Assembly: GCA_963575745.1 (NCBI GenBank)
Contig: CAUYUJ010017776.1
Span: 125,001-189,000, forward strand
Reading direction: 5' to 3'
Length of the DNA: 64,000 bases
Origin: Prorocentrum cordatum
Lineage: Eukaryota; Sar; Dinophyceae; Prorocentrales; Prorocentraceae
The translations under genes were made by a program, and so were the position numbers. Below, piece by piece: positions 23,575 through 40,011 of this stretch (its first letter is position 1; each line of letters opens with the position of its first letter). Under the pieces are notes generated by a model. That model did no database searches. It saw nothing but the letters and a program-made list of their open reading frames with translations, and was not told the origin of the DNA.

Positions 23575-24073
23575 TGGTAGCGGAGCTGGCCGCACTCTCG
23601 TGTGGTCAGCACTTGCTCTTCTCATCCTCATACTCTTCGGCACGATCCTCGTGACCACATACAACCCTGCGCCACCACTCCCAGTACTTTTACGAGGATC
23701 TATCCAAGAGCAAGAAACAACACCAGAGTTACGACGTCTAGACAACAACATTGGTACCATATACGCTTCACCATTGCGCTACTACCAACCGCTCGGCAAC
23801 GAGCCACAAGCACAGTACTTGAAGCAGGGGCGGAGAGATCCGCCAGATAGAGCGCCTCGACGATTCGACAAGGCGCTACCCCAGCGCGGCAACGCGCCTA
23901 ATAACCACCCCTATCTACACAGCCTTGGGCTGGTCATCTTCGCTATCATATGGTTCGCGCTGGGGGCAGCAATCGGATACATGCGCCGCGGAGAAAACAG
24001 CACCGATGGGCAAACACATGGCCCATGCTGGGACCCTCAAGGCAACGTAAATTTTCCGTGGGTACGTTTCTGA
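23423..24073 (+). CDS. retrotransposon leader/Gag N-terminus with two membrane segments
   Basis: The only usable upstream ATG in frame (23423) lies inside the 5' LTR, giving 216 residues. Two hydrophobic stretches are visible: residues 58-80 (LVWSALALLILILFGTILVT) and 168-187 (LGLVIFAIIWFALGAAIGY). The last residues (GPCWDPQGNVNFPWVRF) read naturally into the next frame (DVNAWLNVTSG, 24075 onward), so Gag probably spans both with a frame change near 24070. Membrane segments before Gag are unusual for copia elements. Three GNRA hairpins (23791, 23830, 23884) lie in the loop between the segments. No known family was recognised. Confidence 0.5.
   Translation: MCWKDRYIDFVLSHPSTPHIVFLRHGIGCNVSTSASHGDGCYLTYQAHFRLGSGAGRTLVWSALALLILILFGTILVTTYNPAPPLPVLLRGSIQEQETTPELRRLDNNIGTIYASPLRYYQPLGNEPQAQYLKQGRRDPPDRAPRRFDKALPQRGNAPNNHPYLHSLGLVIFAIIWFALGAAIGYMRRGENSTDGQTHGPCWDPQGNVNFPWVRF
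23575..23590 (+). other. primer-binding site
   Basis: TGGTAGCGGAGCTGG directly abuts the LTR end. It begins with TGG, complementary to tRNA CCA ends, and resembles the initiator-Met primer sites of copia elements (TGGTA-C-GAGC pattern). Confidence 0.75.
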
Positions 24074-24074
24074 T

Positions 24075-24629
24075 GTCAACGCGTGGCTCAACGTCACAAG
24101 CGGACGTATGACGCCACAGGCCCAAGCGGCCGCCATACAACGCGGCCTGGGTGGCCTAGCGAGGACACTCGCCATGAGGGTACCACCTGACATAATAAAC
24201 TATGGCGCTGACATCGATGGGGTCCACACCGACCCAGTGACCTACATCATGTTCCTCCTAAGCATTAAGTTCGAGCGCCTGCAAGATGAGCGCCAGCTCA
24301 CTTCCGGCACACAGCTCATCGACTTCCATGTGCCTCACGGAGAACGAATCGATGTCACTCTTACCCGATTCGAAATGGCCCGGCTTGAGGCACAGTCGGT
24401 GGGATCTGACCTTCCCAACTTCCAACTACTAACCACGATCCTGTTCCGCGCCTTAGGCGTCGGCAACCAGCGAGCCATGCAACTCTTACAGCCGCTCAAT
24501 CATCAAATGCCCCGAACACAACAACAGTATGATGAGTTGCTGGAGAGGATGCGTTCGATAGGTCACCTATCAAAACGATCTCCTGGTGATATAGGATCTG
24601 TGTTTGGAAGGGGATGGGGGATCTGGTAG
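24075..24629 (+). CDS. gag: Gag capsid region
   Basis: Frame with DVNAWLNVTSGRMTPQAQAA, then DPVTYIMFLLSIKFERLQDE, then LPNFQLLTTILFRALG and QRAMQLLQPLNHQMP. The spacing of conserved Trp, Leu and 'L.RF' phrases resembles the helical capsid domain of Ty1/copia Gag proteins, which forms the virus-like particle. The frame is entered from the leader frame by a shift near 24070 and passes into the frame at about 24604 by another. ATG codons exist at 24108 and later, but the similarity begins upstream of them. Confidence 0.65.
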   Translation, partial: VNAWLNVTSGRMTPQAQAAAIQRGLGGLARTLAMRVPPDIINYGADIDGVHTDPVTYIMFLLSIKFERLQDERQLTSGTQLIDFHVPHGERIDVTLTRFEMARLEAQSVGSDLPNFQLLTTILFRALGVGNQRAMQLLQPLNHQMPRTQQQYDELLERMRSIGHLSKRSPGDIGSVFGRGWGIW

Positions 24630-26349
24630 TGGGAATTTCTACACTACCTTAACCACTGAAGCCCAGCCTGGAAACGGGCCCTCAAGCATATGGGCCGATG
24701 ATCCCGGAGAATCTACTGCTCTACTAGCAGGGGATCGACCACAACCAAGCTGGGCAACCAGCCCTCCATCCAGAGAACCTCAACCACACCGCTCTTTATG
24801 GGGCGAATCAAACCCCCTTACCGACGGTGTGTCCACCTACTTGGGAGACGATGATTTCGACTCCGGCACCGACACAGATACTGTATCATCCGACGGTGTT
24901 GAAGCTTTAGATTGGTCAGATATTATGAATATGGAAATTGACAACCAGCGTGCTGAACACTTGTTTTGGTTATTACAACAAGCTAAACGGAGGTGGAGGA
25001 GGGTCGCACGAAAACCAGTGCGTCGTGTTAGGAGGAGGATGCGGAGGAGCTTCAAGGGAAAAGGTAAAGGCAAACGAGGTCGTCGGAGGTTGAATGGACG
25101 AGACATCACGGCATTCCTCCAGAGGCTTTCAGATGAACAGTATGATGAGATATTCTTCGGGGGAAAGGGCCGTGGCAAAGGCCGTAGAGAGACCCCAGGA
25201 AAAGGCAAAGGTAGGCGGGGAAACCCGCGAGGTAGAGACGGCCAGGTTCCAAAGTGCTATGAGTGTGATAGTACCGACCATCTTGTGAGAGATTGTCCAG
25301 CGAAGGGAAATGGAAAGGGCAGATCGACCGAAGTCTATTTTGGCTCAAGTGAACCATTCATCGAATATCTGAGCCTCCAGGATTCTGAGGCCATGGAACA
25401 GATATTTTACACTTGGGTCAGTTGCATGGACAACGTCGACGAGCTCGAGGCGTATGGTCATGGATTGTACGCGTACTACCTCGAGTACGTCCGCAGGTTC
25501 GTTGTTGGCAACAACGAGCTTACTCCCGTGGAACACGGAACGCTGGGAAACAAGCCTTTATTTTTCTTCGACTGGATGTTCGGGAACCCAGGCAACATCA
25601 TGGCCTGCGAGAGCAGTGACGAGGACGTCACTGTAGAGGCCTCGCCTTCAGAGGTTAACCGTAACCTCCAACCTCCACCCGACCTCCCGCCTGGAAACGG
25701 GCCTACCTATCCCCGAAACTACGCTGAACTTATAGTAATGGAGTCTCAAGAATTTGTTCCGGGCACACCAGGGAACCCATATATTCCCCCTGGTTCGCTT
25801 GCGCCGGGCGAGTACGGGCCACGCGCACTACTGCAGACCCTCATGAGGACGCACGAGATTTTGACCATAGCCCATCCTGAGAGTCAGGAGAGCATCGAGG
25901 CTGGTAATATGATGCTGCATGACACAGACGCGTGCGACGACTCGGAGCTAGTGTTGGCAGCCTTGACTCTTATCGACAGCGTGCACCCTAAGGACGTGCA
26001 GAGGCATGCGTGGTACTCCCGAGGGAGATGGCGCGAGGCCCTTGAAAGGGCCATCGCCATGCGCGGCCAGGCTCTTCCTCCGCCAGGACGGGGCCTCCAG
26101 GCGGCGGGACTGTGGCCAAATCATACTGCCATGCGCAACATTGATGGGCAGCCTGTGCTCGGCAACGAGCCTGAGCCGACAACCGGGCCGCCTACCCCGG
26201 GACAGCCGAGCGACGCACAGACGCCGGCTATGCAGGGAAACCTGCCCGTCCCGGCTGCTCCAATGGCCATCATCATTGGCAGTTTTACATCAGAAGAAGA
26301 AAGGGCGATGGTTGCGGGCTATGCGAAGATGAAGCCACAATCTTCATGA
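24604..26349 (+). CDS. gag: Gag C-terminus with CCHC zinc knuckle
   Basis: Residues CYECDSTDHLVRDC (25255-25296) fit C-x2-C-x4-H-x4-C, the nucleocapsid knuckle that binds the genomic RNA. Before it lies a very basic stretch (KGKGKGKRG, GRGKGRRE), suited to RNA binding. After it come about 350 residues of acidic and Pro/Gly-rich linker without a recognised fold. Seven or eight GNRA hairpins lie in this frame (24666, 24749, 25215, 25503, 25542, 25689, 26157, 26232), encoding GNxP-like peptides. It ends at a stop at 26347-26349, overlapping the next frame by 4 nt (ATGATGG). Confidence 0.75.
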   Translation: MEGDGGSGSGNFYTTLTTEAQPGNGPSSIWADDPGESTALLAGDRPQPSWATSPPSREPQPHRSLWGESNPLTDGVSTYLGDDDFDSGTDTDTVSSDGVEALDWSDIMNMEIDNQRAEHLFWLLQQAKRRWRRVARKPVRRVRRRMRRSFKGKGKGKRGRRRLNGRDITAFLQRLSDEQYDEIFFGGKGRGKGRRETPGKGKGRRGNPRGRDGQVPKCYECDSTDHLVRDCPAKGNGKGRSTEVYFGSSEPFIEYLSLQDSEAMEQIFYTWVSCMDNVDELEAYGHGLYAYYLEYVRRFVVGNNELTPVEHGTLGNKPLFFFDWMFGNPGNIMACESSDEDVTVEASPSEVNRNLQPPPDLPPGNGPTYPRNYAELIVMESQEFVPGTPGNPYIPPGSLAPGEYGPRALLQTLMRTHEILTIAHPESQESIEAGNMMLHDTDACDDSELVLAALTLIDSVHPKDVQRHAWYSRGRWREALERAIAMRGQALPPPGRGLQAAGLWPNHTAMRNIDGQPVLGNEPEPTTGPPTPGQPSDAQTPAMQGNLPVPAAPMAIIIGSFTSEEERAMVAGYAKMKPQSS

Positions 26350-26933
26350 TGGAGGTCACCGGTGAGGAAGAGGTGGACTTTGATCCTGACGAGCCTGATG
26401 CACCATCACCATCGGCACAAGCGCCATTTGCGCCGGGCTCCAGCCAGCAGGGAAACCCGCCTCTATTAGCCGATCCACCTGGGATCGCACAGGAGCCCCC
26501 GCAGGCGCCTCCGCCGGCTTCCACTCAGGCTGCTTCGGCAGCCTCTTCAGATGAGAATGCTGGAAGGTCTCGTTCCCATCCGCGCGTCAGAGGAGAGCCA
26601 CATCCACAGGCTCGGCTTCCTCGTGAGTGGAGGCAAGCTGGCCCAAAGGAACACGCTCTCAGGCGAGGAGGTGAACTACTTCCTTATAATGACCCAAGAC
26701 GCCGAAAAGGGGAACACTCAGCCTTCGGCAAGGCAACCCTGCCTATAGGGACGCTCAGGGTAAGGCCATCCGCGGAGGCTATTAGCTTGCAACAAACATC
26801 CGCCGCCCTGAAAATGAAGAAGTGCGGACGCAACTGCGAAACATCATCGCGGCTCGCAAGCTGTATAGGCCTCAGGCAGTTTGCGGGCCATGTTCCGAGC
26901 CGTTCCAGAACCACAGGCCAGGGTGCCCCGTAG
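26346..26933 (+). CDS. retrotransposon linker, acidic/Pro-rich, no known domain
   Basis: MMEVTGEEEVDFDPDEPDAP opens a frame overlapping the previous stop by four bases. After about residue 60 a different forward frame (26551-26745, MRMLEGLVPIRASEESHI...) looks more protein-like, so another shift may lie near 26550. One hairpin (26447) has an A-C mismatch in its stem. I do not recognise a function. Confidence 0.45.
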   Translation: MMEVTGEEEVDFDPDEPDAPSPSAQAPFAPGSSQQGNPPLLADPPGIAQEPPQAPPPASTQAASAASSDENAGRSRSHPRVRGEPHPQARLPREWRQAGPKEHALRRGGELLPYNDPRRRKGEHSAFGKATLPIGTLRVRPSAEAISLQQTSAALKMKKCGRNCETSSRLASCIGLRQFAGHVPSRSRTTGQGAP

Positions 26934-27334
26934 GAAACAATGACGGTTTGAGCCCAAACAGGGGCCGTACCCCTCATAAGGAGGGCCGTCCGCCACTGAT
27001 CCCGATGACACAGGGCGAGATCGCAGAGATCAATCGTCGTCTCGGGATCCTGGGTCACATGGAGCCGAAAGACGAAGAGGATGAGCCTCCTCCGGCTCCA
27101 AGGGGACTGGTGCCCATGACCCAGGAAGAAGAAGACGCGCTCTTTAACCTTCCTGGAATGCGAGGAAACTCGCCCGGCGTTTCCAGCCAGCCCCAACAGC
27201 CAGAACCGACAGCCAAGGATGACCAGAAGGCCCAGCGGGTTGCGGCGGATGCAGAACGTATGCGAATAGCAGAAGAACGCACACGCGAGGCAACTCGCCA
27301 GATGCTGATGGACTCTTTACATGAAGGGGGCTAA
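26822..27334 (+). CDS. retrotransposon linker with CxxC...HxxxC cluster and charged helix
   Basis: The frame contains CGPCSEPFQNHRPGC, a possible zinc-binding cluster (C-x2-C-x6-H-x3-C), then acidic Pro-rich sequence, then a charged helical tail (KAQRVAADAERMRIAEERTR). It ends with TAA at 27332-27334, overlapping the next frame's ATG at 27321. A perfect hairpin lies at 27160 (peptide RGNSP). The cluster may be a second nucleocapsid-like knuckle; this is a guess. Confidence 0.4.
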   Translation: MRTQLRNIIAARKLYRPQAVCGPCSEPFQNHRPGCPVGNNDGLSPNRGRTPHKEGRPPLIPMTQGEIAEINRRLGILGHMEPKDEEDEPPPAPRGLVPMTQEEEDALFNLPGMRGNSPGVSSQPQQPEPTAKDDQKAQRVAADAERMRIAEERTREATRQMLMDSLHEGG

Positions 27335-28358
27335 GAAGCCCCCGCCCCCACTCCAATCGAAGGCTAAGAGTGAAACTCCAGCACCGAAGTCGTCTTCGGA
27401 AATGAGACCGAAAGCACGCTTTGAGGATCCTGGGCCAGATGTGCAGATGGAGGCGCCTCGCTCTAAAACGCCGAGATCACCGATTGGCGCAACCCCAGCA
27501 CAAGGATCTGAGCCCAAGCAGCAACCTCAGGACCCTGTGGAGGAACGGAGACGCCCGCCTAGTCGCAGCAATTCCATTGCCAAGAAGGCGATGGCTTTCG
27601 AGCGCACAGGGTACGCCCCTGCGCCAGCTACGCCTGCGGCGGCACGTTCCAAAAGGTCCGACGAAGGTGCTCTGTCTAGGGGTACCTGGGTGCCGACGAT
27701 TAGGGGTAGCGCCAGTCGTGAGTCACAGCGGGGAAACCCGCCAGGCGCTGCTGCTGCAGCTTCCTCCTCTTCAGGAGCCGCAGCCACTTCAGCGACAGAG
27801 GCTCCTGCGCGGGGAAACCCGCCCGAGGATCAGCGGCACCACCCAGGAGACACGTCCTTCACCAGTGGGAGTCCGAACGTGATCAGGGATAGAATTGCTC
27901 TGCGGAAGCCCCCACCGATACGCTCGGTGGATGAGGAATTCGTGAGGAAATGCAGGCAAGCAAGCATTATCCCGAGATCCAATCACACCCTCAAGCAACT
28001 GAGTAAAGCTCTCAGTAGGATATGCAGACATGCGCCGGACAAACCACGCAATCCTGTGTGGGACCTGGCTACATTCGATGATCATGATGGCTGGATTAAC
28101 CTCGTAGAGCTCGTAAATGATTATCCGTGGAACACCGGAAAAACGAGACATGATGGGTACAATCCCAAACATGACGAGGCCAATGACATTAACGCGAACC
28201 TATATGGTCCAACGGTTGACCAACTGGCTGCCATCATGATGGAGGTTGTTCATGTCCGCGAACCAGACGGTGAAGAAAAACAGCGCCTTCAGTTCAAGGT
28301 GTTAGTGCGGGGCTCCGGCGAGCCCGAGATCTTCATCCGCGCCTCTCAGGGGCATTCG
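27321..28358 (+). CDS. Pro/Ser-rich linker plus N-terminal half of Tpt1/KptA 2'-phosphotransferase domain
   Basis: After about 200 residues of linker (hairpins at 27728 and 27809) the frame reads LKQLSKALSRICRHAP (Arg at 28026, His at 28029), then DDHDGWINLVELVNDY, and about 80 residues later EIFIRASQGHS (28326-28358). In the Tpt1/KptA family, which removes the 2'-phosphate left at tRNA splice junctions by transfer to NAD+, the Arg-His pair of 'LSKxLRH', the 'DGW' turn and 'IRAxQGHS' are hallmark elements in this order. The second half continues in other frames from about 28358 and 28447. The frame itself stays open to 28505, but past 28358 it leaves the family pattern (CKYCTARPTC..., a Cys-rich alternative). 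Confidence 0.8.
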
Positions 28359-31041
28359 TGGACGTTGAAAGCTCCACGGTCGCTGTGCAAATATTGTACT
28401 GCACGACCAACCTGCCGGGAGACCGGCCCCGTACCCCGAGGTCGCCATGCATGGCACTCGGTGGAATGCCTTCGAAGGCATTATGTGGCACGGCCTGTCC
28501 TGTAGATCCGAACACAACTCGAAGAAAAGGGGGACAGGCCGGTCACACATCCACTTCGTGCCGACGGTCCGCCGTCGTAGCGTGAACAGTGGGTGGGACC
28601 CAGACTCCAACATCATCATCTTTGTAGATTGGCACAAGGCCCTGCAAGATGGTATAAAGTTCTGTTGGTCGGATAACGGGGTCCTTTTGTCCGAGGGAAA
28701 TAACGGTATCATCGAACCGTACTACATTTCCCACGTAGAGGACCTTGCCACTGGGAGGCACTGGCGCAATCCAGAGTGCCTGGGGGATCGCCGGGCGCGT
28801 GTCCCCCCCGCCGTGCTGTCGGCCCCTGGCAGGTGGGCTGACGTTGGCAGTGCCAGCGTCAAATACCAGTGGTCCCGCGACCAAGAGGGCGTCGACCCTC
28901 CTATGGTCTACCTCCACAGGGAAGTTGGGGACCACTACAGCCCCGCCACGCTGGGAAACCAGCCTGAGGTCCACCAGATCTTCATGATCACCGAGAGCGA
29001 GGCCGGGAGCGCGGCTCCAAGCCGCGCCCCAAGCCAAGGGCCTAGCGCCATATCTTGGCAGGCCATCAGCACCTCGGACCTGGACCAGATAGCGGCCGCT
29101 CTGAACCCTGAACAGGTGGAGCAATTGGCGGACATATTATATCAACAAGACCCCTGGGCCGCTGGCCAGGGAGCAATTTCCGCCATGGCGACGCGAAATC
29201 GTCAGGCCATGCAGGGAAACCTGCTTATAAACGGACTCAGACATGAGATGCCTGAGCCGCAGGGAGACCCGCATACGTTCGGCCGCATCTTTGGAGAGCC
29301 TGCTCGACTCGAGCAGATGCATGGTAGCCCCTCGCCTAGTATGCACACACCGAGGGGCATGACCCCAATGGCGACGCCACCTGCACAGTCTCCGTTCGGG
29401 ACTCCTGGTCGCCCTGCCACGAGTGGCACCCTCATGGAGAGGATCGCAGCGGCCAGGGCTGAGCATGGCACAGCTCTCCTGAACATGATGCCGCCTGGCA
29501 CCCCAACGAGTCAGCAGGGAAACCTGCCGGGTACTCCAAGCTATCCTCGACCGTTTGCTGGACAAACTATTGTCGCTGGTGTGCCTGAAGACTACCGTGC
29601 AAGGGTGGCAGCTGCTGTGCAACAGGTGCAGAGTCACAACCTGCCTCACCCGAGTGGCCAGAGGTGGAGGCCGGCCTGGTCCTGGGAGCCTGAGGGTCCC
29701 AATCCAAGGGATCCTGCTCGACAACGAGCCTTTATCCCAGCCTTCAATGCTCGCCCGAGCATGGCCCAGGGCCAGAGACCACCGCCAGCACACATGAATC
29801 CGCCACTGTACCCTGATGGGTCCAGAGTCCCGAACAAGTTTGTTCGTGAAATGGCGGATCAGTTCCACAGCCTCACTAACGTGCGCTGTAGTGATCAGTC
29901 CATGTATCCGCATATGGCCTTTATGCCTGCGCCGACGACGCCAGATGTGGCTGTCCAGCTTACTGCCCATTCGATATCGTCTGGCAGCAGAGGTGTGCCT
30001 GATTATATCAGGCAGACATACCACACCCAACAGGCATGCTTTAGGCGCAGACAGGCCGTGCAGAACGTGCGTGATCATTCACATGCAGCCGCGCTTGAGG
30101 AACAGAGGCTCGCCCATGCGAGGAAACTCGCCCGCTGTGACGCCTACAGCCTCCGTGCCAGCAGCTCCTCCAGCTGTGGCTGCCGGAGTGCCGGAGGTGC
30201 TGGATCCATCAGGGGATCCCCCAGCAGCCTTCGTGCCCTCCGAGACGGTCTTGGAGAGAGACAGCGGCGGGTATATCCCAGAGCAGCAGATGTGGAAGTT
30301 TTCACTGGGATGGAAGATACCTGCGCGGTATGCCTCGAAGAATTTCAGCCCAGGGAGAGTGTTTACCGTTTGAGGTGTAATCACTTATTCCATGAGGAGT
30401 GCTGGAATTCAAATGTGATGGGCCATGTTGCAAACCAGCGCGAGGGAGATCCTCAGCAGCCACCATGTTCTATCTGCCGAGCACCTGGCATCATAGCGTC
30501 ATCATTCCCATGGACCGGCTCTTTCACTCAGACTCCTGAGCAAGCAGCGAGGGAGCTGCGGGAGTTGAGGAGCATGGTGGAGGAGATGACAGCCAGGATG
30601 CTAGACAGGCAGACAGCTCAGCCCCAGCAGCAGGGAAACCTGCCAGAGGAGGTGAGGCCGCCGATGGAGACGGGATACTTCGATCAGCTTATCCCGATAA
30701 CGGCGCCTCAGCAGGGAAACCTGCCTAACACTCCTCAGATGTCTCCCCAGAGTGGGGGCGGGGCAGAGCTGGCACTGGACCCTGATCAGCTGCGTGAGTT
30801 GCGTGTTCGACATTTCCAGAATCAAATGGATAATGCGCACACAACCTTTATGCTGAATGCCGACAATCCTGAGACTGATGGTGCGTCGTTTGACCTCTCA
30901 GACTCCTCAGTGGCAACAGCAGCAACAGCAGCCAGGGCCGTCGACATCACAGCGACGAACGAGGAGTTCGAGGAGTGGCTGCAGTACAGGGATCACCTCA
31001 CGAATGAAGGGTTGCAGGACATTGCCTTCACTCGTATCTGA
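28358..31041 (+). CDS. C-terminal half of Tpt1/KptA domain, long linker, RING-H2 domain
   Basis: From 28447 the frame reads MHGTRWNAFEGIMWHGLSC, GRSHIHFVP, then IIIFVDWHKALQDGIKF and NGVLLSEGNNGIIEPYYI: the HGT motif, the 'HIH' strand and the 'xGI.F..S.NGV.L..G' C-terminal strands of Tpt1/KptA. The Arg of the family phrase SGMR is Asp here (SGWD). The link to the first half runs best through frame 2 (28358-28446), where a perfect hairpin sits (28414). About 500 residues of Pro/Gln/Met-rich linker with many hairpins follow, then a RING-H2 finger (30322-30477): CAVC, CNHLFHEEC and CSIC, as in E3 ubiquitin ligases. The rest is linker. Confidence 0.8.
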
Positions 31042-31133
31042 CGCTGACGAGACGCACGACACGCGAGCAGTATAAGAGCATACGTGATGAGTATGCCAAC
31101 TGGCGGGAGGAGCGTGGCGCTCATGTTCAGCAC

Positions 31134-32228
31134 GTGTCGTACTTCCAGTACATCGACCTGGTACGTATGGCCGAAGGCAGGCCGTATGCCAGCGTCATGC
31201 GGGGTAACCCGCCAGGGAGTATGACCGACTCGCGGGGAAACCCGCCAGACAGCACAGCCGGCACTTCAGAAACCGTGCACATCAAGCAGCCTAGTAAGAC
31301 TCTCTTGGACGATGGTGGAAACTCTAGCCTCATCGATGAAGGCTCGAAGATCAACATCATGGGTGAAAACTTGAGCCGCAAGTTTGTCCAGGCTGCTGAG
31401 GCACACGGCCGTACTTGTACGTTCGAACCCCGTTCTCGTTTGAACATCAACGGGGTGGGCGAAGGGTCGGCCCCAGCGGATACCGCAGGCACATTCAGCA
31501 TTGCCTGCGAGTGCCAGGGCTCGACCCAGCTCGATTCGTACAAGACGAACATTGTGTCAGGCTGTGGCAAAGACCTGTCAGCCATCCTAGGCCTCGATAG
31601 TATGCAGGACAAACGCACGATCATTGTGCTTGAACGAGGCCAGGAGAAGCTGATATTCCCTGGGAAGGGACAGGTCAAGATGGAGCTCCCAGAGGGCTCC
31701 AAGATCATGCCGACGACGAAGTTGCCGTCAGGGCATCTGTCGATCAGGTGTGATCGATTTGGAGCTGCGGGGCAACCCGCCTCGAGCTCAAGCAGCACGT
31801 CATTCCAGACGGTGCTGACGGGCGAGCCGACCCCGGCGCAGGAGCGCGAACAAGTGCAGGGAAACCTGCCTCAGGGGTTGATGGAGACGCTCGCCAAAGC
31901 TACGATGAGAGGTGACAGCATCGACGATCTTGAGACGTTCGATTGCTTCGTAGCCAGGACACTGGCCCAGCATGGTGGAAGTGTACCCATGGACGCTGTA
32001 CAGCCCCGCCGGAAGATAGTGATGGGGTACACGAACCGCGAGCTGCAGACAGTCAGCGACGCGAGGTCCAAAGGCGCGTTGAAGCAGCTGATGGATAATC
32101 CATCCATGCTGACAGCATTTGCGGAGCAATCCGCCTCTGAGGCCACGGCGCGCTGCAGTGCTGAGCTCCAGCATCTGAGGGAAGCCCAGATGCTGGCAGA
32201 CATTGCAGGCGCATCTTCTTTATCTTGA
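31134..32228 (+). CDS. aspartic-protease-like domain
   Basis: LLDDGGNSSLIDEGSKINIMG begins at about 31302. In copia proteases the catalytic phrase is D-S/T-G-A near the N-terminus, followed by a beta-strand-rich fold; here it reads DDGG or GN. The fold continues with FSIACECQGSTQLDSYKTN, then LSAILGLDSMQDKRTIIVL and KLIFPGKGQVKMEL, matching the 'ILGxD' strand typical of retropepsins. Its job would be to cut the Gag-Pol polyprotein. The C-terminal third is helical linker. Hairpins: 31199, 31232, 31856 in the usual phase; 31767 and 32121 in another phase (peptides AGQPA and AEQSA). Catalytic competence is doubtful. Confidence 0.65.
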   Translation: MSYFQYIDLVRMAEGRPYASVMRGNPPGSMTDSRGNPPDSTAGTSETVHIKQPSKTLLDDGGNSSLIDEGSKINIMGENLSRKFVQAAEAHGRTCTFEPRSRLNINGVGEGSAPADTAGTFSIACECQGSTQLDSYKTNIVSGCGKDLSAILGLDSMQDKRTIIVLERGQEKLIFPGKGQVKMELPEGSKIMPTTKLPSGHLSIRCDRFGAAGQPASSSSSTSFQTVLTGEPTPAQEREQVQGNLPQGLMETLAKATMRGDSIDDLETFDCFVARTLAQHGGSVPMDAVQPRRKIVMGYTNRELQTVSDARSKGALKQLMDNPSMLTAFAEQSASEATARCSAELQHLREAQMLADIAGASSLS

Positions 32229-32267: not shown

Positions 32268-33432
32268 TTGGCCGAAAAGCCGGGGGGTAACAAGGACAGC
32301 GGGGTAACCTGCCTTAGCAAAAGAGCTTTTGTCATCGAAGATACGAGAGAGGCTTGCGCCGTCCTCCGCACCCGAGGCTATATCTGTGATCGTATTTCCC
32401 ACAATGAGCTTATGACGAGTGTGGGCACAGATTACCTGGGTGCGGTGATCAGTGGAGATTACGCTCTCGTATGGATTAGTACTCCAGGTGACTGGTATGT
32501 ACGAACTCCAGGAAAGAGAGTGGCCCCACATTTGTCACGTATCCAGAACCTTTTGATAAAAGCCAGGAAACTCCGTATGAAAATTATAATATTTGGTCCC
32601 CCAGGATATGTTTGGAAGTTATCTCCAGTACGTGATACTCTGGAGGATCTGATGCTGTCAGTGATACGGATGCGTTTGTGTCATTTCGGTTTTCGGGTTA
32701 ATATGCAAGATAGTACACCGAGCGGTATTCATATGCAGGTAGCGACATCCATACCGATTAGCTTTAAACTGTGGACACACATGCAAACAGGCGATACCAC
32801 AACATGTGTTGGATTGGCACGGCCATACGGCACGGCATGCCGAATGGCGAGCTCAGACACGTACTACACTCATCCGCCATCTGAACGACAAAATCTTGGG
32901 AAGCACCACCACGCACGGAAACGTGCCTGTATATTTGAACACCTATACACGCACGGACTATAACATCCATCACTACGTGACGACCAACAAGGGAGGACCG
33001 AAATGGTCTGATGTTATCCGGCGTGTAACAATTAACCTGGATACCAATGCGGTCATCCAGGATATCGCAGTAGCCGATCCACCAACAGGATATGATTGGC
33101 ATGCACCACTACCTGCAGGGGTTGCCAACATCAGCACACGGTTGTATTGGCGACCTGAGGAACCGGTCTTGCTCGGAAACGAGCCTATTCAATCACCACA
33201 GAAACCTAGACGCGCCATCATAGATGACTGTTCTCTCCCCCTCCCGACTCTGGCGATTGACGCATGCACCCGCTCAACCGCGACAATGGGCACACAGACC
33301 GGCGAACAAAACGAGCAAGTCTTTCTTACAGAGTCGCGTATCAAGCAGAAGGAAAGGCTCAAAGCCGAAAAGGAAGCAGGCATCAAGCCTCGCCGCATCA
33401 AAAAGCACGTTGAAGACGGAAACGACGATTGA
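32268..33432 (+). CDS. unnamed retrotransposon module between protease and methyltransferase
   Basis: Two overlapping frames appear to form one region: 32268-32810 (DYALVWISTPGDWYVRTPGK..., IIIFGPPGYVWKL, MRLCHFGFRVN, SGIHMQVATSIPI) and 32806-33432 (LDWHGHTARHAEWRAQ, DPPTGYDWHAPLPAGVANI, and a basic tail IKQKERLKAEKEAGIKPRRI). The alternating beta/alpha pattern with GPPG suggests a folded Rossmann-like or nuclease-like domain, but I do not recognise a family. It ends at a TGA (33430-33432) that is in frame with the next stretch, as if an Arg codon CGA had mutated. Hairpins: 32299 (other phase), 32913, 33171. Confidence 0.5.
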
Positions 33433-33441: not shown

Positions 33442-34428
33442 TTGTCAGGACTCGAACAGGATCTTATGGCGACCTGGAGCACTGACGTCCCTGTTGAGCT
33501 GATAAGCTCCGATGAGGATGATGACCTGTTCCTTACCCTCCCCACATCTATGCCAGACACACACGCTGACATATACAGCATAGTCGCTACTCTATGCTAT
33601 GGTCATAACAACTGCGTGGATATGTTGGATCTTTGTGGTGGTGAGGGTGGCATTTCAGAGCTTGCCTTCTCAAGGGGACTCTCCTCGGGAGGCAACTTAG
33701 ACAAGACCACATGTGTCGACCTGGGAGACCCTACGGTGCAGCGGGCTGTAGATCACTACTTCGCAATATGCTACGTACGAGTTGCCATACTACAACCCAG
33801 TTGCCGCACCACAGGACCACCATCCTACTACAACTACAAAGTCAATCACAACACTTGGGAACAGCACCACAAAGAATATTTACCACACATAACATATTTT
33901 GTGGTAAAATTGCTGTCACTCAAGATGATGCACGGAGGTGGTTTATACGCGAACAACCTACAGTAACATGGGTGGATGACATTTCCCCATGGAAGAAACT
34001 TGCCAACCGACCACACATCACAACCGTACGCGTTGATCAGTGTGCCACGGGACTCAAAAGATACGGCTGGTGACTATATTAAGAAGCCGACAAATATCAC
34101 CAGCAACGACGAGACGATTCTTAAACCCTTTGAGCGACTCAAGTGCAACGGTCAGCATGTGCACGCACAACCGTGCAACAGAGAGCTTTCACTGGCACAA
34201 CAATACACTCGACGACTGCAGTCTGCCTTTGTGGAAGCCGTATATTTGGCGAAAGCCATTGACACTACGCGCGGAAACGCGCCTGTACGCACCGCGCATG
34301 CTTACCCTGCTGACCTTCCTGATCAAGCCGAACCCGGAGAAGGTATGAGACGCATCGGTGATCGTATCTTCCCAAAAGGTGGCTACATGCCTGGCATGCA
34401 TCGACAACGTCCGAAAAGACAGTCCTAG
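33442..34428 (+). CDS. SAM-dependent methyltransferase-like domain (C5-methyltransferase-like motifs)
   Basis: Frame 33442-33966 contains MLDLCGGEGGISELAFSRGL (Asp at 33628), close to the SAM-binding motif I (DLxxGxGG) of cytosine-C5 methyltransferases. About 57 residues later comes AILQPSCRTTGPPSYYN, aligning with motif IV with PSC (Cys at 33802) where PPC is usual. After two frame changes, FIREQPTVTWVDDI (about 33942-33983) sits where motif VI (ENV) would be, and KPTNITSNDETILKPFERLK (about 34087) follows. Captured DNA methyltransferases have been reported in dinoflagellate retrotransposons; whether this belongs to that group is unproven, and motif VIII and the target-recognition region are not recognisable. 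Hairpin at 34269. Confidence 0.55.
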
Positions 34429-35566
34429 CCATAACAGAGACCCTACGCAGTGTAAGTATCATGATTATATCTCTGTATATTGGCCATGTCCCGCATGCCA
34501 GAGGGATCTTACGAGAAGCAAAGGTGTTAAGAACCACCTCGATACCGAACCTGGTAAATGTCGTTTTGCTGAACCCTTTGACCTTCCAGATGATCATGAC
34601 CCCGAAGGTAAGACCGTGCCAGCTTGGTGGAAACCCTTACCTAATCCTGGTGAGGGCCAAGCTTCAGCGCCAGGTGGCCGCCAAGGCGCACACGCCAGGC
34701 CACCACGACCACGATCCTTCGGGAACGCTGATCCGACATCTGATGCCAGCAGTTACGACATGCTACGAGACGCCCCCGAGCGTGGAAACACGCCTTCTGC
34801 GTCCTCTAGCGAACCGCCACAGGTTGCGGCCCGTTGTGGTCGCCTACAAGGCGTACCACCACCACCAGATGCAGTTGACGAAGGAGACCGACTGCGGAGA
34901 GCTACAAGGAACCCTCTTGCCTCCACCGGCTCGGGGCTAATCCTAGACAAAGTGGGACTGGATAACGTTCGACTGAGCATGATCAAAGAAGTTTGCGACA
35001 CCTGTCGGGAATGCAGAGCATGGGAACGTCCAGGAAACTCAACATTACCTTCGGTGAGCCTTCCTGGAAGTTGGCCCGATGAAGGCGAAATGGATCTCAT
35101 GTTTTATAAGAAACGAGCCATATTCCATATTATGGATCGCTGTATTCGCCTGGCAGCAGGCCAAGAAATTACCGACAGAGAACGCGACGCGATACTCGAC
35201 GCTTACCACTACTGCTGGATTGCCGATCATGGACCCTTTAAAGTCTTGTACTCAGATGGAGAAGGCGCCCTGAACAATGATACAGCTAAGGCCATGATGG
35301 CGAATAAGGGTACGACACTCCGTATCCGAGCGCCTGGCCAACACGCGACTTCAATCGAGTCACGAAACGGTATTCTTAGAGGCGTCTTCCACATGATTGA
35401 GGAAGAGCTGAATAGACACAACATCCCTGTTGTATTCACTAGAGTATTGGCTGAAGGCATCTTCGTTACCAACGCCTTTACGTTCTACAACGGAGTATCG
35501 CCATACCAAGCACGCACTGGGCGCCAGCCCTCCTTTCTTCCAGATCTCGACACCCTTGACTTTCCC
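34358..35566 (+). CDS. integrase, N-terminal zinc region and catalytic core (interrupted)
   Basis: Cys/His-rich regions (CKYHDY, CPACQRDL, and CDTCRECRAWERPG just before the core) precede the catalytic core. The core has Asp in GEMDLMF (35093), Asp in YSDGEGAL (35255) and Glu in SIESRNGIL (35357), with 33 residues between the second Asp and the Glu: the D,D-35-E arrangement of retroviral-type integrases, which insert the cDNA into the genome. Downstream helices (GVFHMIEEELNRHNIP, TRVLAEGIFVTNAFTFYNGV, PYQARTGRQPSFLPDL) are typical of copia integrases. The frame is cut after DLDTLDFP by the 1.03-kb insertion and resumes in the same frame after the second target copy at 36609. Hairpin at 34780 in the linker before the core; none in the core. 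Confidence 0.85.
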
Positions 35567-35567
35567 G

Positions 35568-35635
35568 TCCGTAGCCATTTTGGCTCAAGCCATTTTGGCT
35601 CAAGCCATTCTGGCTCAAGTGCATTTTGGCTCAAG
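35568..35635 (+). other. DinoSL plus three relic spliced leaders
   Basis: The first copy carries the full leader core CCGTAGCCATTTTGG plus CTCAAG. The next two are 15-nt CCATT(T/C)TGGCTCAAG and the fourth is TGCATTTTGGCTCAAG. Truncation to CCATTTTGG... fits reuse of the internal GTAG of an older leader as the 3' splice acceptor in the following round. Four layers imply at least four rounds of trans-splicing in this gene lineage. Confidence 0.95.
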
Positions 35636-35669
35636 CGATCGCACGGCCGTCGCCCGCCGCCCGCGCGGC

Positions 35670-36461
35670 ATGGCGGCGCCAAGAGGGGCTTGGGCGGCCC
35701 GCGACATCGCGCTCCTGGTGGAGGCCGCGGTGCGCGGGGCCGCCGAGGCGCGCGCCCCGAGGCGGACGGTGGCGGCAGTCGCCCGCTCGGCCATTTCGGC
35801 TGCGCTCTTCCGAGCGGGCCGCGTGGCGGAGGCGGCGGAGGCTGCTGGGGACGACTCGGAGGTGCGCGACGTGGAACCGGAGCGGCCGCCCTCGGCCGCC
35901 AAAGCGGCGCGCAGGCGCCGCCGTCGCCAGCGCCTTTCGGCGCGGCGGGCGGCGGAGCGCAGCGCGGCGGCTGCGGCGGCGGCGGGCGGAGGCGCTGGGG
36001 GCCCAGCTGCTCCTCCGGGGGCCGGTGCGCCGGTGGTTGCTGGTTCGGGGCCTGCGGGGCCCGCGGTCGGCGACGTGGCGGACTCGGACATGGATGACAG
36101 CTGGGCGGACGGGCTGCGGCGGGGGGCGGAGCCGGCTCGTGAAGCCGGCGGAGCTCCTGCGGCGGCCGCGGGCGCTGCGCGGCGCGTGGCCCCTCGCCTC
36201 GAGTCGGGCGGCTCGGCGGGGTCGCGCGCCTCTGCTGGGGAGGCTGCAGGGCTGGAGCTGGCGGCGGCGACGCCGCAGGCCGAGGCCCCTTCCGACCCCT
36301 TCTCGGCCGAGGAGCTGGCCTTGATGGCGAAGGCCGTGGACTGCGGCATGGCGCCGCCCTCGGTGGTGGCCGCGGTGGCGGCGGCACGCGGTGCTCCTCG
36401 GCACGCCCCTCAAGGACGCGGACTCGGTCGGGGAGGGCAGCGGCCTCCCCGTTGTACATAG
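35670..36461 (+). CDS. retroposed coding region, Ala/Arg-rich protein of unknown function
   Basis: The first ATG after the leaders (35670) opens a 263-residue frame to the TAG at 36459-36461, leaving a 34-nt leader-to-start distance and a 3' UTR of about 125 nt before the A tail. The N-terminus (WAARDIALLVEAAVRGAAEA, TVAAVARSAISAALFRAG) looks helical and folded. The middle is Ala/Gly/Pro-rich, with a basic patch (AARRRRRRQRL). The C-terminus repeats the opening idea (FSAEELALMAKAVDCGMAPP, SVVAAVAAARG), so two short helical motifs may be related. Codons are extremely GC-rich, unlike the host retrotransposon. The intact frame suggests a fairly recent retrocopy. No family recognised. Confidence 0.6.
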   Translation: MAAPRGAWAARDIALLVEAAVRGAAEARAPRRTVAAVARSAISAALFRAGRVAEAAEAAGDDSEVRDVEPERPPSAAKAARRRRRRQRLSARRAAERSAAAAAAAGGGAGGPAAPPGAGAPVVAGSGPAGPAVGDVADSDMDDSWADGLRRGAEPAREAGGAPAAAAGAARRVAPRLESGGSAGSRASAGEAAGLELAAATPQAEAPSDPFSAEELALMAKAVDCGMAPPSVVAAVAAARGAPRHAPQGRGLGRGGQRPPRCT

Positions 36462-36608
36462 CCGCTATAGGCCACTTCCGTCGCCTGCGTCGTGGTGCAC
36501 TGTAGCGGTTCTGTACTGAGTTTGGGCCTTTCCCCCCGCTGTAGAGGTCCAGACGCATGAATGTAGCGGAGCTGGGCGTGGAGCTCAAAAAAAACCCTTG
36601 ACTTTCCC

Positions 36609-37805
36609 AAGGGGCCCGAGACATCAGGCCATGAACGAGAACGTCGCGTGAGGGAAGTTAGCCTAGAAGCAATAACTCAAGCCGCGGCTGTGGCCAAGAC
36701 AAATCGTGCTCTCAGGGCTAAAACGGCTCCAGATGGTGCTCGCCTTTACTCAGCAGGGGATCTGGTCGACTACCATCGACCCACTGCCACTAAGGGCGAT
36801 CATGGAGGCTGGAACGGCCCATTCCTTGTGATCCGTAACGCGTCTGAAAGAGGACATATCGTTGTCAAGGCAGGATTTCGCGAGGTGATTGCGATGTATC
36901 CTGACGTTCGTCACACGCTATACTTTGAATGTCTCCTCACACGGGAACTTGGCATGGATAACATGGCCATGCAAACAGTCCTTACGTATGTGGCACACTT
37001 TGGCGCAGGGAAACCTGCCAAAGTCTTCGGCTACATCCCAGACTACAAGGGAAACCACAATCTTTCAGACGACAGCAAGTTTCACCCGCGCGTACATCTT
37101 GCACTACAGTATCTCGTGCGAAACTATTTCCGAGTAGAACGCGTAGTAGCGGTTAGATTGGCCAGAAGTGTGTCATGTCTACCTGCAGTAAAGTATGCCA
37201 CCGGGTCTACGCTGATCCACTACGACAATGATGTCAGCCCAGCCTTCCACTATTATGAGTGTGTGGGCACTGGCTTGAACATTTCTCAAATCACTGGTAG
37301 CACTCATTCCAGACTTATCCAATGTTTGACCTCACATGTTCCTCCCTTAGGATTTCACGACGACCTGGCCAAGTATCAGCACTCGGGCATCACGTCTGGA
37401 GAACACGATACGCTTGGAAACAGGCCTCCACCAGACACCCCAGGTGCCTCATCGCCAAGTGAAGGCCGTCTGTCGACAATCTATGAAGATAACGAGGAAC
37501 ATAATATCGAAGCCATTATGCTGGAAGAGTGGTACGACGAGTTACGTATGGACCTTCATCCCACGACGACAATCGACGATTATCCTTACTGCGTCCCAAC
37601 AACCATGCTGCCCGACCAATGCGTTTTGGTTTCAGCATCTGTGGACGAAGAAGATATCGTATTGTCGGAAACGCTCGGAGACGAGCCCGAACCACAAGAG
37701 CCCTGTCTAGTCTCTCTCTGCTCAACCACACCTGACGAGAGCTACTCTCTTGACAGTGATGAATATGGTCCCTATGTTGAGTTATGTTTTACAGCAGAAA
37801 TGTAA
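36609..37805 (+). CDS. integrase C-terminal part and Pol linker (resumes after insertion)
   Basis: Read from the end of the second target copy the frame continues KGPETSGHERERRVREVS, LEAITQAAAVAKTNRALRAK and YSAGDLVDYHRPTATKGDHG..GPFLVI: the basic helical tail and SH3-like 'GDLVxYxRxxxxKGxxGWxGP' domain that ends many retroelement integrases, so it belongs to the interrupted protein. The rest is an acidic linker (SPSEGRLSTIYEDNEEHNIE). The first ATG (36798 onward or upstream) is not a real start. Hairpins: 37005 in another phase (peptide AGKPA), 37412 and 37673 in the usual phase. Stop TAA 37803-37805. Confidence 0.75.
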   Translation, partial: KGPETSGHERERRVREVSLEAITQAAAVAKTNRALRAKTAPDGARLYSAGDLVDYHRPTATKGDHGGWNGPFLVIRNASERGHIVVKAGFREVIAMYPDVRHTLYFECLLTRELGMDNMAMQTVLTYVAHFGAGKPAKVFGYIPDYKGNHNLSDDSKFHPRVHLALQYLVRNYFRVERVVAVRLARSVSCLPAVKYATGSTLIHYDNDVSPAFHYYECVGTGLNISQITGSTHSRLIQCLTSHVPPLGFHDDLAKYQHSGITSGEHDTLGNRPPPDTPGASSPSEGRLSTIYEDNEEHNIEAIMLEEWYDELRMDLHPTTTIDDYPYCVPTTMLPDQCVLVSASVDEEDIVLSETLGDEPEPQEPCLVSLCSTTPDESYSLDSDEYGPYVELCFTAEM

Positions 37806-37811
37806 AGAGTA

Positions 37812-38696
37812 GTGATGGATCAGACTCAACTTGCACAGCTCGACACTGATGTGGTCGCAACGATGAGAGTATATGTATCCTCTGCTGCTAAACGTGCTGC
37901 GGTAGTCAAGGAAGACGACCTACTCACCAAAGCCGACATAGCAGCACACCCGAAAGAGGTTAGTCAAGCTTTGCACACTGAACTCAAGATCTGTCTCGAC
38001 AACCTGTGCTTTGAGATGTATGATTTATCCGAAGCTTCCAACATCATGACGTCCAGGTATGTATATAAGTGGAAGTTTGCGAAGATAGGTACCGGGAGCG
38101 TTAAAACCATCCGTCTCAGACTTGTCCTTCGTGGATTTATGGGCACTGAGGCTTTCGATGTGGAAACCTTCTCGGGGACCGCTCGAAGCCAGTCCCAGAG
38201 ACTCCTAGCAAGTGAGGCGGCATGCCATCCAGAGTGGATCTTAGCATCCATGGATATCGACAAGGCGTTCCTCAAGGGTCTGACCTATGAGGAACTTGCC
38301 CATGCCACCGACGAGGAAACTCGCATGGTTTGCTTCACCCTTCCACCGGGAAGTGCACAGGTACTTCGTACACTGCCTGGCTTCTCATCCTATGACGAAA
38401 GCCGACACTGCCTCAGGTGCCTCAAGCCAGGAACGGGTACAAAGGACGCCCCAAGAGCGTTCTCTCTCAAACTTCGTACGACCACACGAGCTATAGGCCT
38501 TACACCGACAAGGTATGATCCCGAGTTTGAATTCAGCCAAGGCTTGCTAACGGCAAAACATTGCGATGCTATTAATATGACAGGCCTAGAGAAAAATATA
38601 GACGACTATGTACAACGTGTCGAAAAAGGTGTTTGGCAAATGGAAGCTCAACAAACACTCATATACGAACTGCGCCGTTCGCTACACCAAGAATGA
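37812..38696 (+). CDS. reverse transcriptase (Ty1/copia RVT_2), active site altered
   Basis: The frame shows SRYVYKWKFAK, IRLRLVLRGFMG, ARSQSQRLLASEAA, WILASMDIDKAFLKGLTYEE (first catalytic Asp) and GTGTKDAPRAFSLKL, all in the order of the copia RT that copies genomic RNA into DNA. The active-site phrase, usually HVDD or YVDD, reads HCDA (38559-38570), so one of the two metal-binding Asp residues is Ala. That should abolish polymerase activity. Right after it the similarity moves to another frame (about 38610). A hairpin at 38311 lies in a different phase (DEETRM) and has a mismatched bottom pair. Confidence 0.9.
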   Translation: MMDQTQLAQLDTDVVATMRVYVSSAAKRAAVVKEDDLLTKADIAAHPKEVSQALHTELKICLDNLCFEMYDLSEASNIMTSRYVYKWKFAKIGTGSVKTIRLRLVLRGFMGTEAFDVETFSGTARSQSQRLLASEAACHPEWILASMDIDKAFLKGLTYEELAHATDEETRMVCFTLPPGSAQVLRTLPGFSSYDESRHCLRCLKPGTGTKDAPRAFSLKLRTTTRAIGLTPTRYDPEFEFSQGLLTAKHCDAINMTGLEKNIDDYVQRVEKGVWQMEAQQTLIYELRRSLHQE

Positions 38697-39636
38697 CCAA
38701 GGGGATGTGATCATGGATCAGGACGAATATATCAAGCAACTACGTCCTATCACACACCCAGAACTTACAGGAGCGGCGGCCGATGCCAAAGCCACCAAAC
38801 TCATTACCGACATGTTCGTCAGCTTGCGAGGAGCCCTCGCCTATGCCCTTCTTATTCAAGTCTGGCTCATGGTATACGTGGTCTCTCTTCAGAGAATCCA
38901 AGAGCCCACCAACCTACAAGTCTGGCGACTGAATGCTGTGACGCGAAAGCTGACCAGCAGCCCGAAACGCATCACCTTCCCTCGAATGAAGCCGACGAGT
39001 GAAGTTGACATACACAGCGATTCAGGGTATCGGAAGCTCACCGGGGAGGAGGACGATGAGACCAAGGGCCATGGCATACGCGGGGCCAACGTACTACGGC
39101 GAGGAAACTCGCCTCAAGGCAAGTCCGTCGTTCATCTCTGTGACGGACTATGCAAATCACACCGACTGCAGGTTAGTTCCAGCTATGCCGCGGAGGCACT
39201 CGCAGCTGCACATAACCTCGATGAGTGTTACCCTGCGCTCATCACTCTCCACGAGCTCAAGGCAGGGGCTCTGACTCCACGACAGCTACGAGATATGCGT
39301 GAAGTTGGGGGCCTAGCCATTAAAGTATCTCTTGCCATAGGCGCTGAGTCGGTTTATAAATCGCTATCAAGCAAGGATCTTAAGATACCGACAGAACGGA
39401 CCTTGCTTGGACATATCAGCTGGATACGTGAGCTCACGCATATAGGTATAGTGCATAATGTGCAGTGGTGTGATACTAGAGATATGACCGCAGATGGGCA
39501 TACAAAGGGAAGCATCGATCGGGAGCTGCTTTTGGAAGTGATGTCAGGCACTCAGGCATTTAAGTATGACGTGAAGCAGTTTGTTCCCTTTCGGGGTCCC
39601 GAGGACAGAAACAAACCTAAGTCTAATCAATTTTAG
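38608..39636 (+). CDS. RT thumb/connection and RNase H domain
   Basis: Continues RT after a frame change: FGKWKLNKHSYTNCAVRYTK, MDQDEYIKQLRPITHPELTG and SLRGALAYALLIQVW are the copia RT C-terminal phrases. The RNase H domain follows: VDIHSDSGYRKL (Asp), SSYAAEALAAAHNLDE (Glu) and DTRDMTADGHTKGSIDRELL (Asp), keeping the acidic residues needed to degrade the RNA strand. Ends with TAG at 39634-39636, about 375 bp before the 3' LTR. One hairpin (39099, peptide RGNSP) lies between the first two RNase H motifs, in a surface-loop position. Confidence 0.9.
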   Translation: MYNVSKKVFGKWKLNKHSYTNCAVRYTKNDQGDVIMDQDEYIKQLRPITHPELTGAAADAKATKLITDMFVSLRGALAYALLIQVWLMVYVVSLQRIQEPTNLQVWRLNAVTRKLTSSPKRITFPRMKPTSEVDIHSDSGYRKLTGEEDDETKGHGIRGANVLRRGNSPQGKSVVHLCDGLCKSHRLQVSSSYAAEALAAAHNLDECYPALITLHELKAGALTPRQLRDMREVGGLAIKVSLAIGAESVYKSLSSKDLKIPTERTLLGHISWIRELTHIGIVHNVQWCDTRDMTADGHTKGSIDRELLLEVMSGTQAFKYDVKQFVPFRGPEDRNKPKSNQF

Positions 39637-40011
39637 TCTGTCCTTGTTGCCCCCGCGGTCCAATTTGCCAGCATGGGCGCCTACTACAGAGGCGCCCTTC
39701 TAGGTGCTCGGAAACGAGCCTTACGTTTCACGCCTGGCAACGAGCCGGCTTTATATGATTCAGGCTCTTTGCCTTAATACCCGCTTGCTCGGTGAGGTAC
39801 GGCCCGTTTGGCTTACCTCTAGCCGGGCCGATAGCCCTTTACTATTCAAGGGGCTGTCTTGCATTTGCGTGAAATGCCTTGCGAGGAAACTCGCCTTACA
39901 GTCTGGTGCTAGGCCAGTCTGTATGCACTGTTTTCTTGCAAACAGTTGCGCGCGCGGCCTTTGTAGAGCCTAACGGCTGCGCGGCTATACTCTCCGTCTC
40001 CTCCCCTCCCG
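39637..40011 (+). other. retrotransposon 3' non-coding region
   Basis: No coding. Holds two perfect GNRA hairpins (39706, 39881), a degenerate one (39732) and a separate larger stem-loop ACTGTTT...AAACAGT (39927-39946). Directly before the 3' LTR, where a purine-rich primer tract is expected, the plus strand is pyrimidine-rich (TCTCCGTCTCCTCCCCTCCC, 39990-40010). Confidence 0.75.

Follow-up and report, generated by a model that had tools for sequence, protein, structure and literature searches.

What are the forty or so short palindromes that recur along one retrotransposon of the dinoflagellate Prorocentrum cordatum, and do they act as DNA, as RNA or through the peptides they encode? The element lies at 23303-40283 of the window, by which we mean the whole stretch of 64,000 nucleotides analysed here (GenBank assembly GCA_963575745.1, contig CAUYUJ010017776.1, positions 125,001 to 189,000, forward strand). 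Its two 272-bp long terminal repeats (LTRs), at 23303..23574 and 40012..40283 on the + strand, are 96% identical to each other, and together with a Copia-type reverse transcriptase they identify it as a Copia-type LTR retrotransposon. An earlier description of this DNA, the sequence-only reading, had drawn attention to the repeated unit. Our analysis indicates that the array consists of selected nucleic-acid hairpins, most likely acting as RNA, and not of peptide repeats or recent mini-insertions. A function in RNA is well supported, and the results leave packaging, translation and recognition undistinguished as its exact role.

The sequence-only reading had reported a 15-nucleotide unit about 40 times between the LTRs and no good copy elsewhere, and a recount bears this out. 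The exact motif GCNNGGNRACNNGCC occurs 35 times on the + strand, always within 23791-39895, and 0 times on the − strand or in the remainder of the window. Seven further sites in the element (23830, 24159, 25215, 29211, 29716, 31953 and 32121) have one or two mismatches, keep all five pairs and recur in other copies, which brings the total to 42; near matches at 23120 and 23264 (ahead of the 5' LTR), at 29259, 35148, 35994 and 39304, and, outside the element, at 15579, 15993, 55179 and 55481 were left out. Each unit can form a stem of five base pairs: GC/GC makes up the base, two middle positions vary freely but stay paired, and a G-C (sometimes A-U) pair closes a 4-nucleotide G..A loop; in this family, which we call A, the stem is usually followed by C. 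A sixth pair is kept from forming, as the flanking base is C on the 3' side and seldom G on the 5' side (1 of 35). In the element, with the nested insertion described below removed, GC-based GNNA hairpins whose five pairs are all Watson-Crick number 34 in the sense direction and 0 in the antisense direction.

The claim that pairing is preserved also stands: the inner two pairs form in 32 of the 35 exact sites if G-U is allowed (28 with Watson-Crick pairs only), against a mean of 7.48 and a maximum of 18 when the 3' halves were permuted 20000 times. Dinucleotide shuffles of the element (n = 300), the control that had been named as a possible refutation, gave a mean of 0.1 motifs and a maximum of 2, and order-3 Markov sequences (n = 100) a mean of 0.14 and again a maximum of 2. 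The loops of the exact sites are GAAA (24), GCAA (7), GAGA (2) and GTAA (2). The loops had been described as all GNRA except one ACAA; this is accurate for the exact sites and for the ACAA at 29716. At 24159 and 31953 the loop is GACA, and 39 of the 42 sites are GNRA.

Genome-wide searches, which cover the 4.13-Gb assembly, gave 1745 occurrences of the paired 15-mer GCTCGGAAACGAGCC and 5 of its reversed control. A mispaired version, with the same 5' half and a non-pairing 3' half from another hairpin, occurs 8 times, a comparison that covers one stem. Among the first 100 matches to GCTCGGAAACGAGCC listed, many come in twos with a spacing of about 5.6 kb, which is what two sites per element would produce. 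The loose motif GCNNGGNRACNNGCC gave 108589 matches against 32022 for the reversed pattern, a count that says little because unpaired sequences and tandem repeats make up most of the first 100 places listed; a paired example (L002) has no match to the element. A chance origin of the array is ruled out by the shuffles, the Markov sequences and the mispaired control. A known RNA family was rejected as well, with 0 matches to Rfam covariance models over 23200-40300 at E up to 1, and a RAC motif of the N6-methyladenosine type was set aside, the second loop base being C in 7 of 35 sites and the base after AC being G in 11 of 35.

Do the hairpins stay in place as the element multiplies? A protein search of the same genome, starting from 4701 first-look candidates, yielded 102 scored places with 92-100% identity, one of them the window itself. 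In each of 30 loci read, motif matches are confined to one strand, and they fall on 14 alignment sites, each held by 8 to 30 of the 30 copies. Three alignments of copies, with 33, 7 and 6 rows, were used; the window is in each, and they partly overlap in sequence and in copies. One copy (L018) is counted in the 30-copy tallies and was excluded from the 33-row alignment, its flank being different sequence, and two copies in the 6-row alignment read N near the 3' end. Since the copies are related, alignment columns are not independent. In addition, three copies (L053-L055) form a subfamily, A2, with about 85% nucleotide identity to family A.

The sequence-only reading had left two explanations standing, a proliferating palindromic mini-insertion, which empty sites would support, and an RNA structure, which fixed positions with covariation would support. 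No empty 15-bp site was seen at any of the 42 sites among the aligned copies: internal gaps are absent, and gaps occur only at the ends of fetched pieces. All 14 of 14 middle-region sites are present in all three A2 copies. The idea that selfish 15-bp palindromes spread inside the element could draw on the constant length of 15 nucleotides, a multiple of three, on the phase bias described below and on a 27-bp tandem duplication through which one hairpin is present twice in some copies. However, it is opposed by the fixed sites, by selection on stems at synonymous positions and by hairpins that align without gaps to non-hairpin sequence of a related family (both below), and we consider it very improbable, although insertion at an earlier time, before A and A2 split, may have taken place.

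Sequence variation among the copies shows where selection acts. Over 10 of the 14 sites, base and CpG context predict 141 minor alleles and 69 were observed; the deficit starts and stops at the 15-nucleotide unit, within which the free base and the last base of the loop are the exceptions. Four-fold degenerate columns in stems are polymorphic in 4 of 26 cases versus 353 of 653 elsewhere in the 33-row alignment (Fisher p 9e-5), in 2 of 52 versus 373 of 1267 in the 7-row alignment (p 6e-6) and in 0 of 34 versus 316 of 1211 in the 6-row alignment (p 7e-5), whereas those at the free loop base are polymorphic at background-like rates (7/9, 4/19 and 3/10, respectively). The test used 46 hairpin starts, including probable chance ones at 25169, 30789 and 39190 as well as 29259, and took codon phase from the frames of the window copy, split wherever the frame shifts, which may leave a few sites wrongly labelled. 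With four-fold positions constrained in the stem and free in the loop, the pressure is therefore on base pairing and not on the peptide. Fixed differences between A and A2 agree, at 0 of 140 stem positions versus 251 of 3922 others (p 2e-4).

Covariation, which had been proposed as a test in copies and related elements, gave a score of 0.58 versus 0.117 for shuffled data, with 98.4% of cells paired versus 75.5%, in rows that are 40 chosen hairpins and so partly selected for pairing; 0 of 500 shuffles reached either value, and sliding the pairing partners abolishes the signal. Three compensatory sites between families, described below, add to it. By the four-fold test, the A versus A2 differences and covariation, structure is conserved above coding constraint. 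Fixed positions, covariation within and between families and synonymous constraint on stems thus favour an RNA structure with a function, the second of the two original explanations.

The position of the hairpins relative to the coding sequence is uneven. In the window copy, phases 2, 0 and 1 hold 28, 8 and 3 of 39 sites, respectively, where the phase 2 figure includes three leader sites in an open reading frame (ORF) that may not be translated; three further sites lie 3' of the last ORF. Loops are GNRA in 28 of 28 phase 2 sites in family A and 0 of 5 in the related family B, and in 5 of 8 and 3 of 29 phase 0 sites, respectively. Because the GNRA share differs between the families within each phase, loop class tracks family and not reading phase. 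The density of the 42 sites is 6.3 per kb in the leader, about 3.6 in linkers, 8.0 in the 3' part, 0.55 in the reverse transcriptase/RNase H (RT/RH) region and 0 in a methyltransferase-like stretch, as expected if hairpins are placed where the protein tolerates them.

Phase bias and linker positions would also suit a peptide repeat (xGNxP in family A, AGxPA in family B), for example one that makes flexible linkers or sites for a protease, in which case the hairpin would be a by-product; the peptides RGDAP, RGDTP, AGQPA and AGRPA in two protein relatives, P0001 and P0002, point the same way. However, synonymous stem positions are constrained and the synonymous loop position is free, phases 0, 1 and 2 and sites outside ORFs are all represented, and some family B sites change their peptide to AExSA yet keep pairing. 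The chance that the peptide is what is selected is therefore very small in our view.

The individual sites, all on the + strand, are as follows. Exact copies of the motif read GCTCG-GCAA-CGAGC-C at 23791..23805 and 26157..26171, GCTCG-GAAA-CGAGC-C at 33171..33185 and (3' of the last ORF) 39706..39720, GCTCG-GAGA-CGAGC-C at 37673..37687, GCGCG-GCAA-CGCGC-C at 23884..23898, GCGCG-GAAA-CGCGC-C at 34269..34283, GCCTG-GAAA-CGGGC-C at 24666..24680 and 25689..25703, GCTGG-GCAA-CCAGC-C at 24749..24763 and GCTGG-GAAA-CCAGC-C at 28950..28964. GCAGG-GAAA-CCTGC-C stands at 26232..26246, 29514..29528, 30630..30644 (loop GACA in A2), 30711..30725 (next base A in A2), 31856..31870 and 37005..37019. GCGAG-GAAA-CTCGC-C is found at 27160..27174, 30118..30132, 39099..39113 and, 3' of the last ORF and 131 nucleotides ahead of the 3' LTR, at 39881..39895, and GCGAG-GCAA-CTCGC-C at 27285..27299. 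Stems based on GCGGG comprise GCGGG-GAAA-CCCGC-C at 27728..27742, 27809..27823 and 31232..31246, GCGGG-GTAA-CCCGC-C at 31199..31213, GCGGG-GCAA-CCCGC-C at 31767..31781 (the same in 33 of 33 aligned copies) and GCGGG-GTAA-CCTGC-C at 32299..32313. The remaining paired stems are GCCGG-GAGA-CCGGC-C at 28414..28428, GCACG-GAAA-CGTGC-C at 32913..32927, GCGTG-GAAA-CACGC-C at 34780..34794 and GCTTG-GAAA-CAGGC-C at 37412..37426. Three exact matches are imperfectly paired in the window: 25542..25556 has one broken pair and is paired in 6 of 7 aligned copies, 26447..26461 has one A-C mismatch and pairs fully in 3 of 7, and 39732..39746, 3' of the last ORF, has one mismatch.

The near matches are GCGGA-GAGA-TCCGC-C at 23830..23844 (closing pair A-T, G-C in L049), GCGAG-GACA-CTCGC-C at 24159..24173, GCGGG-GAAA-CCCGC-G at 25215..25229, GCAGG-GAAA-CCTGC-T at 29211..29225, GCTCG-ACAA-CGAGC-C at 29716..29730, GCCAG-GACA-CTGGC-C at 31953..31967 and GCGGA-GCAA-TCCGC-C at 32121..32135 (closing pair A-T). 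An extra site in the RT ORF (38311..38325), outside the 42, lacks its first pair in the window, where A replaces G, and is fully paired with a G..A loop in 4 of 6 aligned copies. At 29716 the loop is GCAA in 23 of 33 aligned copies, GCAG in 9 and ACAA in 1, the window. At the last loop base, 13 of 15 changes over 10 sites are A>G, as is the change in 9 of 33 copies at 29716; a mutational or editing bias is a possible cause of this excess. The hairpin at 32299-32313 is doubled by the 27-bp tandem duplication in about a third of the 30 copies.

A more distant relative, family B, provides a further comparison. It was found on contig C1, with 69% nucleotide identity over 1411 bases and 73% amino acid identity in the reverse transcriptase region, and its LTRs are 98.6% identical to each other. 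It carries 38 GC-based G..A-loop hairpins in the sense direction and 4 in the antisense direction; three of its hairpins (13288, 13297 and 13324 in joined coordinates) are part of an alanine-rich repeat, of which they could be by-products. The loops are GNYA in 33 of 38, mostly GCCA and GTCA, and GNRA in 5 of 38, which places the family B array outside the GNRA tetraloop class. GNRA as the loop of the motif therefore describes family A and does not extend to a general rule. A 1.27-kb family B probe matched 40 scored places, its own included, at 98-100% identity (745 candidates), and two further copies have 11 hairpins per 4.3-kb stretch, the same as in the first copy except for one displaced in L058.

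Three coding sites are homologous between the families, each with the stem changed on both sides: 37005 (GCGGG-GAAA-CCCGC in family B), 39099 (GCGTG-GCCA-CACGC) and 37673 (GCAAG-GCCA-CTTGC, where the alignment places a gap after the first base of the family B homologue). At two of the three the loop class is also switched. The 15-mer of 39881 recurs 123 nucleotides ahead of the family B 3' LTR, a likeness in sequence and position. Within family B, GCGGG-GNCA-CCCGC alternates with GCGGA-GNCA-TCCGC (4 sites), G-C being the closing pair in most sites; the alternation changes the peptide from AGxPA to AExSA and leaves pairing unchanged. Opposite hairpins 24159, 33171 and 32299 of family A and 12659 of family B, the other family has non-hairpin sequence of equal length and no gap, and so at least some sites seem to arise by substitution and not by insertion. 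Other sites fall in gapped or poorly aligned linkers, which are uninformative on origin.

Protein searches reached further, to P0001 and P0002 in ENA contigs (40 and 43% identity), which contain RGDAP, RGDTP, AGQPA, AGRPA, ARQRA and ARRRA. As a lead only, these are the peptides that such hairpins would encode, and RGDxP would imply a GNGA loop; the same motif scan also returned AEVRA, which violates the pairing rule. P0001 was the sole match in the protein search with alignment A1, the protein search with an 890-amino-acid ORF found no relative among 8000 candidates scored, and searches of viral contigs and genome contigs found none.

The proteins of the element bear on what might read the hairpins. 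An ORF at 24051..24629 (+), which we take to be gag-like, has 66.8% amino acid identity to family B and no Pfam match. It is followed by an ORF (24595..26349, +) with a CCHC zinc-knuckle match (PF00098, E 5.7e-4, 20.3 bits against a cut-off of 20.8); the match is present in the gag part of both families, each time slightly below the Pfam cut-off. The ORF at 31008..32228 (+), the query for our copy searches, surrounds what is presumably a protease. The Copia-type reverse transcriptase lies at 37806..38696 (+; PF07727, E 6.7e-8), and a putative integrase would lie upstream of it, where a Pfam scan of 34349-35548 and 36567-37802 gave no match. Open frames reach 5094 amino acids in some other copies, which suggests that the product may be one very long polyprotein; the coding region of the window copy is split into several frames.

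Both families also encode a Tpt1/KptA RNA 2'-phosphotransferase domain (PF01885) with a RING finger after it. In the window the domain spans two frames (27993..28698, +; two partial matches, E 1.3e-5 and 4e-15), with RH, QGHS, HGT and HIHF patterns picked out by eye, and the RING finger (PF17123/PF13639) is at 30316..30480 (+); in family B the domain is at L051:6658-7077. We speculate that it might remove 2'-phosphates from RNA ahead of reverse transcription. No paper on a retrotransposon with Tpt1/KptA was found among the literature matches listed, judged by title. The ORF at 33433-33966, which is 59% identical in family B and has no Pfam match, contains a motif resembling the start of a DNA methyltransferase. 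A GC-rich nested insertion (35566..36594, no strand assigned) with ORFs on both strands is absent from the five other copies read there, where the alignment breaks (L041, L044, L046, L048 and L050). Immediately 5' of the 3' LTR the sense strand (39980-40011) is pyrimidine-rich, CTCCGTCTCCTCCCCTCCCGACTT, at a position where a polypurine tract is expected, and the stretch is similar in family B (about L039:7508-7530). Outside the element are a long GTT/GCT-rich low-complexity stretch (43390-43694) and a 124-bp tandem repeat (44738-44985).

What, then, would the hairpins do? An RNA recognition hairpin with an element-encoded reader is what the results as a whole favour, namely strand, the sharp 15-nucleotide boundary, covariation, synonymous constraint, sites outside ORFs and the family-specific loop. 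Gag-mediated packaging or assembly is the first candidate because both families have a zinc-knuckle match in the gag part. We give an even chance to the proposal that the approximately 42 hairpins of the sense RNA are dispersed packaging or assembly signals bound by an element-encoded RNA-binding protein. The sense RNA would then carry about 42 copies of one recognition hairpin, each a putative binding site for such a protein, with the CCHC-knuckle Gag the first to consider. Many similar sites would nucleate assembly on, and select, the element's own RNA of about 16 kb, and loop class (GNRA in A, GNYA in B) would be a family identity tag preventing cross-packaging. A bolder form, a loop-coded RNA identity system with some 40 hairpins from end to end and the third loop base matched to the element's own Gag, is tentative, and we lean against it; that base is A in most family A loops, C in most family B loops and, judging by the RGDxP peptides, would be G in the source of P0001 and P0002. 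If true, each of several coexisting 16-kb elements could single out its own RNA and package it.

Several results weigh against packaging signals. Local folds of 215 nucleotides give a mean pair probability above 0.5 to 23 of 35 hairpins, and to 16 of 35 on the antisense strand; packaging leaves unexplained the 12 that are not favoured. Two of five covariation measures were not above the shuffles (both-side changes, reached by 110 of 500; further pair types, by 51 of 500), and the A versus A2 comparison at four-fold sites alone (0 of 25 versus 82 of 643, p 0.06) falls short of significance. The GCAG loop in 9 of 33 copies at 29716 and the mismatch at 39732, retained in 4 of 4 readable copies, depart from the motif. 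GC-based hairpins with other loops exceed shuffles as well (6 versus 1.06 in A; 14 versus 1.60 in B, part of the 14 lying in the alanine-rich repeat). Clear homology between the families is limited to three coding sites, with most other sites unshared, and a pure RNA model does not predict the strong phase bias (phase 2 in 28 of 39 for A, phase 0 in 29 of 37 for B).

One-strand specificity would suit single-stranded complementary DNA (cDNA) equally with RNA, and G..A tetraloops are stable in DNA too, so it might be as DNA that the hairpins work, for instance while the element is reverse transcribed or integrated. However, some 40 sites spread over the full length have no obvious function in cDNA, and the closing pair is mostly G-C, unlike the C-G pair that closes extra-stable DNA loops; a DNA role appears improbable. 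A functional RNA of another kind, pacing translation of the long polyprotein, aiding RNA stability or export, or binding a host factor, is a more serious though still doubtful alternative. The density peaks in leader, linkers and 3' part, with the lowest values in RT/RH and the methyltransferase-like stretch, are compatible with it, as are the open frames of up to 5094 amino acids in some copies. Against pacing, a 5-bp hairpin is a weak ribosome block, and the sites at 39706, 39732 and 39881 come after the last ORF, where pacing is irrelevant; against a host factor, the family-specific loop favours an element-specific reader.

The array can be compared with three kinds of known system. Palindromic mini-elements, such as mitochondrial GC clusters, double-hairpin elements and Rickettsia palindromic elements, are likewise short palindromes at many places, sometimes in frame within genes; here, in contrast, the sites are fixed, the copies read contain no empty sites and synonymous positions are constrained. 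Retroviral packaging hairpins with tetraloops are few, lie in the 5' leader and are bound by nucleocapsid. The present element resembles that system in being an LTR element with tetraloop hairpins and a zinc-knuckle protein as presumed reader, and differs in having about 40 hairpins along its full length. In viruses, degenerate motifs make dispersed packaging signals difficult to prove. Such signals are described in single-stranded RNA viruses and hepatitis B virus (PMC6281560; PMC7612645), and according to a review similar mechanisms may occur with repurposed Gag-like proteins (PMC6281560). In these descriptions, viral genomic RNAs carry many stem-loops with a short loop motif in common and otherwise variable sequence, and the same arrangement of multiple stem-loops with a common loop motif is found here, at 42 sites in family A and 38 in family B, RNA folding being predicted. 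Such arrays are thus known as a viral model; the sequence-only reading knew of no description of one like this, and we likewise found none for an LTR retrotransposon in the literature surveyed by titles and the beginnings of abstracts. Unlike the viral signals, these belong to an LTR retrotransposon and are very uniform in stem length, pairs and loop (5 bp, GC base, G..A). With an array regular enough to be recognised by eye, and two families distinguished by their loops, the idea of many similar sites for one protein can be put directly to the test; such an array could also explain how very long retroelement RNAs are selected among many related transcripts in a very large genome.

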